Origin: Zetaproteobacteria bacterium
Lineage (GTDB): Bacteria; Pseudomonadota; Zetaproteobacteria; Mariprofundales; Mariprofundaceae
Length of the DNA: 60,819 nt
Assembly: GCA_021545585.1 (NCBI GenBank)
Contig: JAJRTF010000026.1
Location: 1-60,819, forward strand
Reading direction: 5' to 3'
Shown here in pieces: positions 38,724 to 45,138 of the stretch. The translations under genes and the position numbers were made by a program. The notes below the pieces were generated by a model. The model was given only the letters and a program-made list of their open reading frames with translations. It made no database searches and was not told the origin of the DNA. How positions within the stretch are numbered: the stretch's first letter is position 1; every line of letters begins with the position of its first letter.

Positions 38724-40511
38724 ATGATGTTGCCACGTACGCATTGCGGAGATTTCAGGGTTGTTCATATTGGTCAGGAGGTTCGGCTTAATGGCTGGGC
38801 GCAAACCAACCGCGATCATGGCGGCGTGGTTTTTATTGATGTACGCGATCGCAGCGGTTTGGTGCAGGTTGTTGTGCATCCCGATACCGCCGATGTGCAT
38901 CGGCTTGCCCACTCGCTGCGCCAGCAGGATGTGATCGAAGTCGTGGGCGAGGTCATTGCCCGCAGTGATGAGACGGTTAATGACAAGCTTCCGACCGGGG
39001 CGATTGAGGTGAAAGCCTCTTCCATCAATGTGCTGAACCGCTCTGAAACACCGCCGTTTATGGTTGAGGACGATTGCGATACCGGTGAGCAGCATCGTCT
39101 GGAGTATCGTTATCTGGATCTGCGACGACCGGTGATGCAGTCGTATATGCAGCTTCGGCACCGGGTGACACACGCCGCGCGCAATTATCTCGACAGTCAG
39201 GCGTTTCTCGAGATTGAAACCCCTATCCTGAACAAATCAACACCTGAAGGCGCGCGTGATTATCTGGTGCCGTCACGTGTGTATCCGGGTTCTTTTTATG
39301 CCCTGCCACAAAGCCCGCAGATTTTCAAACAGTTGCTGATGGTCGCGGGCATGGATCGTTATTATCAGATTGCCCGCTGCTTCAGGGATGAGGATCTTCG
39401 TGCTGACCGTCAGCCGGAGTTCACTCAGGTGGATATTGAGATGTCCTTTGTCAGCCAGGACGAGGTGATGGCGGTGGCCGAAGGTCTGCTGCGCTCGATG
39501 TTCGAGGCCGGCGTCGGCATTAATCTGCCCGAGGTGTTTCCGCGCATTACGTATGCCGAGGCCATGGACAGATACGGCCTGGATCGACCGGATGTGCGCT
39601 TTGGCCTGGAGCACATCGATGTTACCGAATTGATGCGCAAGGTTGAATTCAAGGTGTTCCGTGAGCCGGCGGATAACGGAGGCCTTGTCAAGGTGATCCG
39701 TGTACCCGAGGGCAGCAAGCTTTCGCGCAAGCAGATTGATGACTATACCAGGTTTGTCAGTATTTACGGTGCCCGGGGTCTGGCGTGGATCAAGGTGAAT
39801 GATAAGGACAGCCTGCCGGACGGGTTGCAATCCCCGATTGTGAAGTTCCTGCCCGAGGATGTGCTCAGGGAGCTGCTGCAGGCCTGCGACGCGGAAAATG
39901 GCGATGTACTGTTCTTCGGTGCCGGTGATGCCAAGATCGTCAATGATGCGCTTGGTCATCTGCGCGTGAAACTGGGCCATGATCTCGGTTTGGTGGCCGA
40001 AGACGATCATCGCTTTGTATGGGTGGTTGATTTCCCGATGTTTGCCTGGAATGCCGATGAGAAACGTCCGGAGGCGCTGCATCATCCCTTTACCGCACCT
40101 TACGATGAAGACCTCGACAAGCTCGAGACTGATCCTCTGAATATGCGTTCACAGGCATATGATCTGGTCTGGAACGGCACGGAAATCGGTGGTGGTTCGA
40201 TACGTATCCACAGCCCGGAAGTTCAGGCGCGGGTATTCAAGACGCTGGCGATTTCCGATGATGAGGCTGAGGCCAAGTTTGGATTCCTGGTACAGGCGCT
40301 GACGTATGGTGCGCCACCGCATGGTGGTCTGGCATTCGGTCTGGATCGCGTGCTGTCCCTGATGGCGGGTGTGGACTCGATTCGCGATGTGATTGCCTTT
40401 CCGAAGACGCAGAAGGCAGCGGACCCGATGTCGGAAGCACCCAGCGATGTGTCGGATGAGCAGTGGAAGGAGCTGGGCCTGCGCAAGCGCAGAACGATCA
40501 GCGAATCCTGA
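38724..40511 (+). CDS. aspS: Aspartyl-tRNA synthetase
   Basis: A 595-residue class IIb synthetase of the bacterial type with the GAD insertion. The OB-fold anticodon domain contains EVRLNGWAQTNRDHGGVVFIDVRD. Motif 2 is YYQIARCFRDEDLRADRQPEFTQ in part (about 212-234), and motif 3 is GGLAFGLDRVLSLM (about 535). Length agrees with bacterial AspRS. GGAGG is six bases before the first ATG. No gatCAB or asnS is in the window, so tRNA-Asn specificity cannot be judged. Confidence 0.97.
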   Translation: MMLPRTHCGDFRVVHIGQEVRLNGWAQTNRDHGGVVFIDVRDRSGLVQVVVHPDTADVHRLAHSLRQQDVIEVVGEVIARSDETVNDKLPTGAIEVKASSINVLNRSETPPFMVEDDCDTGEQHRLEYRYLDLRRPVMQSYMQLRHRVTHAARNYLDSQAFLEIETPILNKSTPEGARDYLVPSRVYPGSFYALPQSPQIFKQLLMVAGMDRYYQIARCFRDEDLRADRQPEFTQVDIEMSFVSQDEVMAVAEGLLRSMFEAGVGINLPEVFPRITYAEAMDRYGLDRPDVRFGLEHIDVTELMRKVEFKVFREPADNGGLVKVIRVPEGSKLSRKQIDDYTRFVSIYGARGLAWIKVNDKDSLPDGLQSPIVKFLPEDVLRELLQACDAENGDVLFFGAGDAKIVNDALGHLRVKLGHDLGLVAEDDHRFVWVVDFPMFAWNADEKRPEALHHPFTAPYDEDLDKLETDPLNMRSQAYDLVWNGTEIGGGSIRIHSPEVQARVFKTLAISDDEAEAKFGFLVQALTYGAPPHGGLAFGLDRVLSLMAGVDSIRDVIAFPKTQKAADPMSEAPSDVSDEQWKELGLRKRRTISES

Positions 40512-40572: not shown

Positions 40573-40863
40573 ATGAGACTATGTGCTGTCGTTCTGTTGC
40601 TGCTGTTGCCGGCCTGTATGCTTAAACCGCCGGCGCAGGAAATGGCCGATGCACGGTCGGCTGTAAAAACAGCCAGCGAACTGCCCGGCCATTCGGATGC
40701 ATCCGATCGGTACTTGCAGAGTGCTGAGCGTGCACTCGAAGAAGCCGCTGAAGCGATTCGTCAGGAGCATTATGAGCACGCCCGTAGCCAGGCGCTGAAG
40801 GCGCGGCGTGATGCCCAGAAGGCGGCCCGCATCAAACAGCAGAAGGCGCAACAATCCAAGTAG
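40573..40863 (+). CDS. Small lipoprotein, DUF4398-like
   Basis: A 96-residue protein with lipobox LLPAC (Cys15). A helical, Ala/Glu/Lys-rich body (MADARSAVKTASEL, SAERALEEAAEAIRQEHYEH, RDAQKAARIKQQKAQQ) like DUF4398 lipoproteins found near Lpp/OmpA-type envelope genes. Probably an anchored periplasmic coiled coil. ATG 40573 places the signal peptide correctly; the frame is open further inside aspS. It is followed 27 bases later by the isocitrate dehydrogenase fusion. Confidence 0.75.
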   Translation: MRLCAVVLLLLLPACMLKPPAQEMADARSAVKTASELPGHSDASDRYLQSAERALEEAAEAIRQEHYEHARSQALKARRDAQKAARIKQQKAQQSK

Positions 40864-40890: not shown

Positions 40891-42636
40891 ATGGCGTTCG
40901 ATAAAATCAGCGTGCCCGTAAAGGGCGACAAGATTACCATGGGTGATAACGGCAAGCTGAATGTGCCTGATCAGCCGATTGTGACATTTATTGAGGGCGA
41001 TGGCATTGGCCCTGATATCTGGAAGGCAACACAGGCCATGCTTGATGCGGCGGTTGAGAAGGCTTATGGCGGCAAACGCAGGATTTCCTGGATGGAAGTC
41101 TATGCCGGCGAAAAGGCATGGAACCTTTACGGAAAAAGTGATGATGCATGGCTGCCGAAAGAGTCGCTGGATGCAATGCGTGAATATCTGGTTGGCCTGA
41201 AAGGGCCGCTGACTACGCCGATTGGCGGTGGTATGGGCTCCCTGAATGTGGCCATCCGCCAGACACTGGATCTGTATGTTTGCCTGCGTCCGGTTAAACA
41301 TTTTGCCGGCGTACCGAGTCCTGTGAAACGCCCGGAAGATGTGGATATGGTGATTTTCCGTGAGAATACTGAGGACATCTATGCCGGTATCGAGTGGCCT
41401 GAAGGCAGTGATGAAGTCAGGAAGATCATTGCTTTCCTGCAAAATGAAATGGGCGTGGCGAAAATTCGTTTTCCGGAAAGCAGCGGTATAGGTGTGAAAC
41501 CGGTATCCAAAGAGGGTACCGAGCGACTGGTGCGCTCAGCCATTCAATATGCGATCGATAATGATTTGAAGAGTGTGACCCTTGTGCATAAGGGTAACAT
41601 CATGAAATACACCGAGGGCGCTTTCCGCAACTGGGGCTACGAGCTGGCCAAGCGCGATTTCGGCGCTCAGGAGATTGATGGCGGACCATGGTGTGAATTG
41701 CCGAACGGCATCGTCATCAAAGATGCCATTGCCGATATTGCTTTGCAGCAGGTGCTGACACGGCCGAAGGAATTCGCTGTGATTGCGACGTTGAATCTGA
41801 ACGGTGATTATCTCTCTGATGCTCTGGCGGCGCAGGTTGGCGGTATTGGTATCGCACCCGGCGCGAACATCAATTATACCAGCGGTCACGCAGTATTTGA
41901 GGCTACGCATGGTACAGCGCCTAAATATGCCAATAAAAACATGGTCAATCCGTCTTCGATGACCTTGTCCGGCGAGCTGATGCTGCGTTATATGGGATGG
42001 GAGAAAGCTGCCGATCTGGTTATCCATGGCATCAATGGTGCTATAGCAGCCAAAACCGTGACCTACGACTTTCACCGGCTGATGGAAGGAGCAACCAAGC
42101 TGTCTACCTCTGAGTTCGGCGATGCAGTGATTGCCCATATGGATCGCGTGGATGGCGCTGCCGGTTCAGCAGAGGATCAATACGATCAACTGGCTGCCCG
42201 GTTCAAGGAGTTGTTTGAGGCTGGTGCTGAAAAGAGTGCCGAGATGGCACAGGCCACCATGGAAAAGGCGCGCCAGCAGTTGACCGCAGCCGGGGCCTTT
42301 AGTGAAGAACAGGGGAAAAATCTGAAGACATTTCTTGAACGTGATTTTGCCCAGGTTGCAACCAGCATGCGTGCCGAAGCCCGGGAAAAACTGAATCCGT
42401 CGCGGGTTGGGGCGGGGGCATTGTCATCCCTGTCAGCATTGTTGAATATGGCTGGTTCGGCATTGTCGAGCGCGGCTGAAAAGACTCAGAAGGTGATCAG
42501 CTGCCGTTCGGGTGAGATCACCAGTGCCGGTACGCTGACCTGTCAGGCATGTGGCCATGAAATGCATTTCAAGAAGACCGGCCGTGTGCCGCCTTGCCCG
42601 AAATGTCACGCCACGGAGTTCCGCAAGAGCTATTGA
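40891..42636 (+). CDS. icd: NADP-dependent isocitrate dehydrogenase fused to a DUF1451-type zinc-ribbon domain
   Basis: A 581-residue protein. Residues 1-417 are a complete NADP-type isocitrate dehydrogenase: [16 protein letters not shown], the substrate loop [18 protein letters not shown] with the phosphorylatable Ser, [15 protein letters not shown], and [18 protein letters not shown] with Lys/Tyr NADP determinants. E. coli Icd is 416 residues. Residues 418-581 form an in-frame extension: an alpha-helical, coiled-coil-like stretch ([20 protein letters not shown]) and a zinc ribbon with CQAC (551-554) and CPKC (569-572) in the DUF1451 pattern [14 protein letters not shown]. No stop or start signal separates the parts. 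It makes 2-oxoglutarate and NADPH in the TCA cycle. Confidence 0.95.
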
Positions 42637-43394
42637 TGTCTGGGTCGGGCATATATCGCCATCCGGTTTTAAGTTCGTGGATGGTGCTGATATTGATGAT
42701 GCCGGGAACCGCTGTAGCCGGCCTTCTCGATGACTTATTTGAAGATGCGGGCAAGGCTTTACAGGCAGGCGATATTTCTTCGGTGGCAGCGTCAAGCCGG
42801 AAGGATATTGAGGCAGGCCTGAAACAGGCGCTTGAGAAGAGCACGGCCAGAGCGGTACAGCGGATTGGTCATACGAACGGTTACTGGAAGAATGCACGCA
42901 TTCGTATTCCCTTGCCTGAGAAATGGCAGCATCCGGCCAGGCTTTTGCAGCAGGCCGGCATGGGTTCTTATGCTGAGGACTTGCAACGTCGCATCAATCG
43001 GGCGGCGGAAACGGCAGCGCCGCTGGCCAAGCCCATTTTTCTTGATGCGATACGTGAAATGCGCTTTGCCGATGTTCAGCGCATATGGAAGGGCCCGGAT
43101 GATGCCGCAACTGCTTATTTTAAAACCAAAACAGAGACCCGATTGAAGGCGGCTTTTACTCCGCTCATGCACAGGGAATTGCAGCGCTCAGGGGCAGTGC
43201 GAAGCTGGAGGGCGTTTTCGAGTCGTTATGAAAGCCTGCCCCTGATCGGCAGTTATCTGAAAGACGATCTTGATGCCTATGCGACGCAGATGGCGCTGAC
43301 AGGAATGTTTACCATTCTGGCCGATGAAGAGGCGAAAATCCGGCATGACCCCGTGGCTCGAACCACGCATTTGTTAAAACGCGTTTTTAAATAG
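42636..43394 (+). CDS. DUF4197 family secreted protein
   Basis: A 252-residue protein with signal peptide (about 1-28, ending GTAVA). The DUF4197 body is present: IEAGLKQALEKSTARAVQRI, the FLDAIREMRFADVQRIWKGP core, TAYFKTKTETRLKAAFTPLM, and the terminal LTGMFTILADEEAKIRHDP. Function is unknown; members are periplasmic. Its ATG overlaps the icd-fusion stop by one base (TGATG), so it is translationally coupled with it. GAGTTCCG upstream is not a strong ribosome site. Confidence 0.85.
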   Translation: MSGSGIYRHPVLSSWMVLILMMPGTAVAGLLDDLFEDAGKALQAGDISSVAASSRKDIEAGLKQALEKSTARAVQRIGHTNGYWKNARIRIPLPEKWQHPARLLQQAGMGSYAEDLQRRINRAAETAAPLAKPIFLDAIREMRFADVQRIWKGPDDAATAYFKTKTETRLKAAFTPLMHRELQRSGAVRSWRAFSSRYESLPLIGSYLKDDLDAYATQMALTGMFTILADEEAKIRHDPVARTTHLLKRVFK

Positions 43395-43408: not shown

Positions 43409-45037
43409 TTATTCGCTCTGGCCAAAATCAAAGGATCCGGATATATCGAGTTCCTTGGGCTTTACAACATGACAGATGGTATAGTTGACGCCGGTTCTGA
43501 CTACCTTCTGAACCTTCAGGTGCACGCTTTTCCCTTCATGCGAAATGACAAAAGACATGTTTTTATATATGCGGGCATCAGGGAAAATGGCCAGGGTGGC
43601 CTTGCTGCCCGGCTTGATCAGAATCGGCCATGAGCGCTTTTCAGTCAGTTCATCTCCGCCGCCCTTCATGCCGCCTTTAACCAGCTTGAATTTCTGATTG
43701 AAAAACTTGATGCCCATGCGTTGTTCGCCGGGTTTTGGTTCCTTGATCCAGCGGATAAAACCGAGCATGGGTTCGCCGTGGTGTGGAATCCAGCTAAGGC
43801 CAATCATAGAGCCGACACTCAGGTCGGGCGAGGTGAAAGATAAACGCTCCAGTCCGGCCCCGGTATTGCTGAGGTCGACAACGGACCATGCATCTTCATC
43901 GCTTCCCGCACTGGGTGCATACTCATATTCATTCATCACCAGGGCTGAATTCGCTTCGACAAAGGACTTGGCCAGATCCCATTCGACAATGATGCGCACC
44001 CCCTGCTGACCTATGCGCTCGGCACTCCGATCCTTGATACGCATGGCATCCAGTATGGCATTACCACCGCTGATGGTCGTTAATAGTGACTCTTCAGTAA
44101 TCAGGTCACTGCGCTGCATATCCTGACTGCCAAGGATGCCCTCGACACGGTTGATGGCGGTCACCAGGCGATCTAGGAACTGATCCATGGGTATCACGAT
44201 ACAGTCATAGGGCAACGGGTCGGGCAGTTGATCCATGACCTTGGCCGGATCATTGGGCTTGGACATATTGGTGACCAGTATGCTGCTGTCCGGGATGGTG
44301 GGAGGAGGGTCACCTTTACGACAAAATTGGGGTTTTAGCACGCCTATATGATTCTGTAATTCTTCCCATGCCATCTTCTGATCGGCATGCGATTTACCGA
44401 AAAAGTCCATGGTGCGCAACAGTTCGAAATTCGCTATTGCCTTGTACAAACGGTCGCGCTCCAGTAAGGCATCTTCCTTCAGCATGGGCGTCACGCATAA
44501 TCCAAGACGCGACAGGCCCATAACCTGACGGGTGGCAATAACTGCGACTGCCTGATAATTCTCCATCAGCAGACGCAAGAGCTTGACGGCCAGATCAATG
44601 GCATTGGCGACCATGTCAGCCAGAACACGATAATAGGCCGGCTGCGAGCGGGCGGCCTTTTGCACCAGATCAACGCCAATCTTGTGAGCATTCAGTACGG
44701 CTGCTGTCATTTCCCCGTCAAACAGCTCCAGCTCGCGCTCAAAACGGTTAAGTACCTTGAGTCTGAAATGCAGTGGGATCAGGGGGTTTGAATTCAGACG
44801 AGCCAGATAGTTTTTCATGTTTTTGCGCAGGCTTTCAGCCTCGGCTGGCGAGGAACCGACGATGTATTGTGCCAGACGTTTTTCGATATCGGTGAATGGC
44901 AGGGTCAGCGCATCGGTGAGCAGCTCGGCCTTGCCCAGTTCAAGTCGTTGAGGGTGCAAACGCAAATCGGTATCAAGTTCAAACGATACCGATGCCATCA
45001 ACTCTTTAGCTGATTCATTACTTGTGCCGTTGCTCAT
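43409..45037 (-). CDS. Large PilZ-like domain protein of unknown function
   Basis: A 542-residue cytoplasmic protein without a signal peptide. The first ~350 residues are helical with no recognised domain (repeated LAQYIVGSSPAEAESLRKNM, VLNRFERELELFDGEMTAAV). Residues near 380-450 look like a PilZ domain: RSAER, DLSNTGAGLERLSF (the D/NxSxxG motif), and GFIRWIKEPKPGEQRMGIKFF. The RxxxR-to-DxSxxG spacing is longer than usual, so cyclic di-GMP binding is uncertain. ATG 45037 is preferred; a TTG lies nine bases upstream. It ends 14 bases from the convergent DUF4197 gene. Confidence 0.7.
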   Translation of the reverse strand: MSNGTSNESAKELMASVSFELDTDLRLHPQRLELGKAELLTDALTLPFTDIEKRLAQYIVGSSPAEAESLRKNMKNYLARLNSNPLIPLHFRLKVLNRFERELELFDGEMTAAVLNAHKIGVDLVQKAARSQPAYYRVLADMVANAIDLAVKLLRLLMENYQAVAVIATRQVMGLSRLGLCVTPMLKEDALLERDRLYKAIANFELLRTMDFFGKSHADQKMAWEELQNHIGVLKPQFCRKGDPPPTIPDSSILVTNMSKPNDPAKVMDQLPDPLPYDCIVIPMDQFLDRLVTAINRVEGILGSQDMQRSDLITEESLLTTISGGNAILDAMRIKDRSAERIGQQGVRIIVEWDLAKSFVEANSALVMNEYEYAPSAGSDEDAWSVVDLSNTGAGLERLSFTSPDLSVGSMIGLSWIPHHGEPMLGFIRWIKEPKPGEQRMGIKFFNQKFKLVKGGMKGGGDELTEKRSWPILIKPGSKATLAIFPDARIYKNMSFVISHEGKSVHLKVQKVVRTGVNYTICHVVKPKELDISGSFDFGQSE

Positions 45038-45138
45038 CCTGGGCAATGCCCTCCGTTATTTATGCGTGGACATAGAACAAGAATATACATCCATAAGGCA
45101 TAAATAGACCGATTTTTGACCAATGTCAAAGAATGAGC

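Follow-up and report, generated by a model that had tools for sequence, protein, structure and literature searches.

An isocitrate dehydrogenase–DUF1451 fusion in the Mariprofundales and the decay of its catalytic half in Ghiorsea

A gene from a member of the Mariprofundaceae, in the iron-oxidising Zetaproteobacteria, encodes a complete NADP-type isocitrate dehydrogenase (Icd, an enzyme of the citric acid cycle), a linker of variable sequence and an entire DUF1451 domain in one reading frame. It is confirmed as a real two-domain fusion, which arose once in the Mariprofundales and has been inherited vertically. The window, meaning the whole stretch of DNA analysed, is 60,819 nucleotides of contig JAJRTF010000026.1. 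It is probable, in our judgement, that this once-arisen fusion joins an active Icd to a tail that works separately and binds a partner, with the Icd as the carrier that displays the tails in pairs. The fusion links DUF1451, a domain for which we found no known function, with an enzyme that is well understood, in bacteria that are grown in culture. In Ghiorsea, a series of decaying copies forms a natural experiment that parts the two halves and so makes the role of the tail testable. The original prediction knew of no description of the architecture; in the literature searched we found no description of the fusion and no mention of DUF1451 together with isocitrate dehydrogenase.

The gene (40891–42636, + strand; Table 1) is a single ATG-started open reading frame of 581 codons, and its frame runs through the junction free of stops and frameshifts, as had been predicted. 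Profile scores from Pfam and NCBIfam bear out the fusion in one frame. The Icd domain matches TIGR00183 (prok_nadp_idh) over residues 4–418 with 677.1 bits against a curated cut-off of 567.3, exceeds the cut-off of NF005425, and matches PF00180 over residues 31–413 with 297 bits. Residues 1–417 align over their full length with the Icd of Escherichia coli, the type I homodimeric NADP-dependent enzyme of TIGR00183. The ten E. coli positions that we take to be substrate, metal or catalytic residues (S113, N115, R119, R129, R153, Y160, K230, D283, D307 and D311) and the four that presumably contact NADP and determine cofactor specificity (K344, Y345, Y391 and R395) are identical in the window, and all 14 are retained in the full-length fusions checked. 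In an AlphaFold2 model of the whole protein this half has the standard Icd fold (best match to solved Icd structures, E 1e-56). These features suggest that the window protein is an active, homodimeric Icd. Ordinary members of TIGR00183 stop near residue 417, whereas this protein continues with 164 residues of linker and DUF1451.

The tail matches PF07295 (DUF1451) over residues 443–579 with 101.3 bits against a gathering cut-off of 26.1 (E 6.8e-29), covers model positions 4–144 of 146, and is the only PF07295 match in its genome; chance similarity is ruled out by this score. Like E. coli YbeL and PF07295 generally, it has a helical segment followed by a C-terminal CxxC...CxxC ribbon. Elsewhere DUF1451 is a separate protein, and here it is fused to Icd. 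The predicted DUF1451 assignment is upheld with the qualification that the tail scores only 33.3 bits with the equivalog model PRK11032 (NF008261), far below its cut-off of 183; we take this model to be that of YbeL, and the tail is therefore not filed as YbeL. AlphaFold2 places helices at residues 427–444, 450–466, 472–500 and 510–536, with low confidence for residues 494–535, and short strands make up the ribbon at the C-terminal end. The four ribbon cysteines are invariant in alignments A1, A2 and A3, in which fused, relic and standalone rows were used, and this pattern suggests that the tail binds zinc. A membrane segment in the tail was considered and rejected, the maximum 19-residue hydropathy in the window protein being 1.18 with no clear transmembrane helix.

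Table 1. Features of the fusion gene and its upstream neighbours in the window.
Feature	Coordinates	Strand	Evidence
aspS (aspartyl-tRNA synthetase), conserved upstream neighbour of fusion and relics	38724..40511	+	synteny
Small lipoprotein gene (DUF4398) between aspS and fusion	40579..40863	+	PF14346; synteny
Icd domain, complete (residues 1–418)	40891..42144	+	PF00180, TIGR00183, NF005425; 14-residue check; PDB fold match
Short variable linker (about residues 419–426)	42145..42168	+	low AlphaFold2 confidence at residues 420–426; 32% mean identity among fused proteins
Helical part of DUF1451 (residues 427–536), four helices	42169..42498	+	PF07295; AlphaFold2
C-terminal zinc ribbon, putative (residues 537–581)	42499..42633	+	cysteine alignments
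Ribbon cysteines C551 and C554	codons at 42541 and 42550	+	alignments A1–A3
Ribbon cysteines C569 and C572	codons at 42595 and 42604	+	alignments A1–A3

By our own tally from the search table, 43 of the 78 genomes of the Mariprofundales encode Icd and tail together in one uninterrupted frame, which in one of them ends at residue 568 at a contig end; the extension is thus not random read-through, as was originally argued. In five further genomes contig ends split or truncate the gene. In one more, a SZUA-26 bin (G024, L180:3097-4851), the frame is broken within the zinc ribbon, probably by a sequencing error. Most genera of the family have the fusion. Among the genomes that carry it are those of the isolates Mariprofundus ferrooxydans PV-1 (L134), M. 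micogutta ET2 (L118) and M. erugo P3 (L124), as well as strains KV and EBB-1. Most of the genomes are metagenome bins, and the absences in G005, G047 and G083 fall at contig ends and are uninformative. In the sister family f3 no DUF1451 was found in any genome; Icd ends near residue 417–419 without DUF1451 in two members (G027 and G028), and a third (G026) has neither. Both the dimeric and the monomeric isocitrate dehydrogenase went undetected in our searches of G005 and G026, which are 98–99% complete; the aspS contig of G005 stops before the fusion site, a gap that may explain the missing enzyme there.

Across 399 genomes sampled from the phylum, convincing DUF1451 in frames of more than 300 residues is limited to the Mariprofundales. 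About one-fifth of the Pseudomonadota genomes sampled outside the order have DUF1451, in frames of about 157–216 amino acids, with a handful of weak, incomplete matches in other frames; in the approximately 320 other Pseudomonadota genomes the domain is standalone only. Two frames that seem longer (L178 and L188) are apparently not fusions; their extra length looks like open sequence ahead of the normal start codon. An architecture search across genomes had been proposed: a scan of 84,980 species returned 388 relatives of the tail, and among the best 80 of these every Icd fusion comes from the Mariprofundales. The suggested restriction to Zetaproteobacteria is therefore right among the genomes sampled. 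No viral relatives were found, and a PHROGs search gave marginal hits only.

In a tree of the DUF1451 domain, all the fused and relic sequences group together (support 96/90), apart from the standalone proteins, with the relics nested inside this clade. The surroundings of the gene are also conserved. The order aspS, DUF4398 lipoprotein gene, icd-DUF1451 is kept in the intact loci compared, and the first two genes keep their order at relic loci where the contig extends far enough; in family f3 a thioredoxin-reductase-like gene, its identity read from the open reading frames, directly follows aspS. In the window the fusion stop codon overlaps the start of a DUF4197 gene (TGATG, 42634–42638), which suggests translational coupling of the two genes in this genome. 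Among the relatives compared, only L183 also has a DUF4197 gene adjoining the fusion. Further downstream, 43409–45046 on the - strand encodes a 545-residue protein without a Pfam match.

The two halves part in genus g9, mostly Ghiorsea (its records bear the names Ghiorsea, Mariprofundaceae or Mariprofundus UBA1536). The fusion is intact in two genomes, G018 and G053. G062 encodes a 518-residue protein in which DUF1451 is intact and nearly all the catalytic residues are replaced, reading AHQRKTSAAE where intact Icd has SNRRRYKDDD. In 11 further genomes, relics of 287–315 residues lack the Icd catalytic core and keep traces of the first 75 and last 60 Icd residues joined to DUF1451. Every zinc cysteine is retained in the relics. 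A Pfam scan of three short relics no longer recognises Icd. A profile comparison aligned the relic family with the fusion at both ends, although the two alignments share rows and the comparison is not an independent test. When a relic model was used for a fold search, Icd and isopropylmalate dehydrogenases were matched only weakly and partially (best E 0.014). The Icd remnant is modelled by AlphaFold2 with good confidence (block means of about 71–92 across residues 21–150) and so looks like folded protein. Annotators should be warned that the Ghiorsea remnants align to Icd without its catalytic residues. In G060, of the same genus, the gene is lost and ATGACACTGGATCAAAACCAAGCTTCTGCCATAGGTGAATATTTATGA alone is left between the lipoprotein gene and dapE, a name assigned by reading the sequence; a dapE-like gene also follows the relic in genomes neighbouring G060. 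These 15 codons look like a start-codon scar of the relic gene. No other DUF1451 was found in the G060 genome, and the deletion implies that the tail is not indispensable there. A tree of aspS fits one decay event (support 69/43), whereas the tail tree suggests two or more.

Of the 12 relic genomes, 11 also carry the unrelated monomeric isocitrate dehydrogenase (PF03971), as does the scar genome; neither intact g9 genome has it. These genomes share ancestry, and the association does not represent independent events. The sole relic genome without it, G054, is recorded as 9% contaminated. In several genomes of g10 and g4 the monomeric enzyme coexists with an intact fusion; a second enzyme therefore permits decay without forcing it. 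A tail that needs an active Icd would also fit the catalytically intact fusions of g10 and g4.

Selection differs between the halves once decay has begun. In simple pairwise Nei-Gojobori estimates, for which dS is approximate, close intact pairs have dN/dS of 0.035–0.066 for Icd and 0–0.075 for the tail. Relic pairs have 0.02–0.05 for the tail and 0.12–0.25 (about 0.2) for the Icd remnant, with 95% bootstrap intervals reaching at most 0.64 and all below 1. The tail is under strong purifying selection; the Icd remnant is relaxed yet constrained. That constraint argues that the tail is translated within the longer polypeptide rather than from a start codon inside the gene. Because the tail stays constrained and keeps its zinc cysteines while Icd decays, its function is probably separable from catalysis.

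How, then, might the fused protein work? We propose that one chain carries two halves with separate work. The Icd half would make 2-oxoglutarate and NADPH; the tail, on its flexible linker, would do the same job as standalone DUF1451 in other Proteobacteria, most likely by using its zinc ribbon and helices to bind a partner. Icd would be both carrier and dimerisation platform, so that the tails would be paired. Docking to another protein, one role offered in the original prediction, is possible, and we infer partner binding together with dimeric display. The partner-binding role is a guess, because searches of the literature and the PDB found no function or solved structure for any DUF1451 protein; against the PDB no convincing relative appeared, the weak matches being designed coiled coils and unrelated ribbons. 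The E. coli ybeL literature examined gives expression changes, or uses the gene or protein as a tool, and reports no function. No conserved neighbour of standalone DUF1451 genes was found, and a Mariprofundus protein paper in which evidence of expression was sought yielded no mention of Icd. In the g9 relics the Icd half appears, from its sequence, to survive as a non-enzymatic carrier. With slightly less than even confidence, we would extend this to a history in which the Ghiorsea Icd core was deleted stepwise, the folded remnant with DUF1451 was selected as a non-enzymatic zinc-ribbon carrier, the Mariprofundus protein is bifunctional and DUF1451 has a general cellular role. Were the carrier reading true, that general role would explain why the domain is retained.

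Does the tail instead act on Icd in cis, at the dimer interface, as a zinc or redox sensor, or as a control of activity replacing AceK? The original prediction had the ribbon working on Icd through oligomerisation or redox or metal sensing, and as the main role this finds no support: Ghiorsea has lost the catalytic half while the tail is still selected, and the linker, besides being short, varies in sequence and has little structure in the model. Retention of the fusion across most genera of the family would suit a cis role, as would the absence of AceK (PF06315) from all 78 genomes of the order in a search that detected the E. coli control; yet the sister family also lacks AceK and its Icd is untailed. 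Because 12 related genomes lack the catalytic residues or core and yet, in the relic pairs measured, the tail is held at dN/dS 0.02–0.05, the tail must do more than regulate catalysis, and we regard action in cis as unlikely. C-terminal additions to isocitrate dehydrogenase do have parallels. PDB 2d1c, which we take to be the Thermus thermophilus enzyme with an extra C-terminal domain, has a chain of 495–496 residues, belongs to a more distant Icd type and is 31% identical to the window protein. Another parallel is PtIDH1 of the diatom Phaeodactylum tricornutum, also an isocitrate dehydrogenase with a small C-terminal metal-binding domain gained in one lineage (PMC7460673). Its EF-hand belongs to the dimer interface and is required for dimerisation and activity (PMC7460673); unlike the window protein, PtIDH1 is a type II eukaryotic NAD enzyme and its added domain binds calcium (PMC7460673). 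By analogy with this precedent, a regulatory effect of the tail on Icd may occur in the intact proteins.

Could the tail be neutral baggage, with a chance event having fused a once standalone DUF1451 gene to icd, so that the two share no more than expression? The lack of a conserved neighbourhood around standalone DUF1451 genes and the loss of the whole gene in G060 would agree with this. It is already disfavoured by the selection result, the dN/dS of the tail being as low as that of Icd itself. All zinc cysteines are kept in intact and relic proteins alike, and co-expression leaves the constraint on the fused Icd remnant unexplained, so that we rate baggage as quite improbable. An annotation artefact, whether a lost stop codon, a frameshift or a misassembly, is scarcely credible: nothing found for the window favours it, the SZUA-26 frame break lies in a related metagenome copy, and the frame through the junction is common to dozens of independent assemblies. 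Its recurrence as a single frame, isolates included, excludes both chance and a lost stop codon. The preferred reading remains an active Icd carrying a separately working tail.

Several DUF1451 sequences stand apart from this history. Alongside its fused Icd-DUF1451, one Zetaproteobacterium (G072; L177:5962-6465, contig PFXI01000072.1) encodes a further DUF1451 as a standalone protein. In the tree this second copy falls with betaproteobacterial sequences, and it was probably acquired by transfer or is a binning error. The DUF1451 at L176:5962-6465, on a contig labelled Desulfurivibrio (Thermodesulfobacteriota), is nested among proteobacterial sequences, and bin contamination or transfer is likely. 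In a Moraxellaceae DUF1451 protein (L186:5531-6412) the family is elaborated in another way, by repeated helical segments (KEKVTDVLDTTKEAVAEKAHQAKDYLKDDLEKTKADVQN) that form a long extension at the N-terminus.
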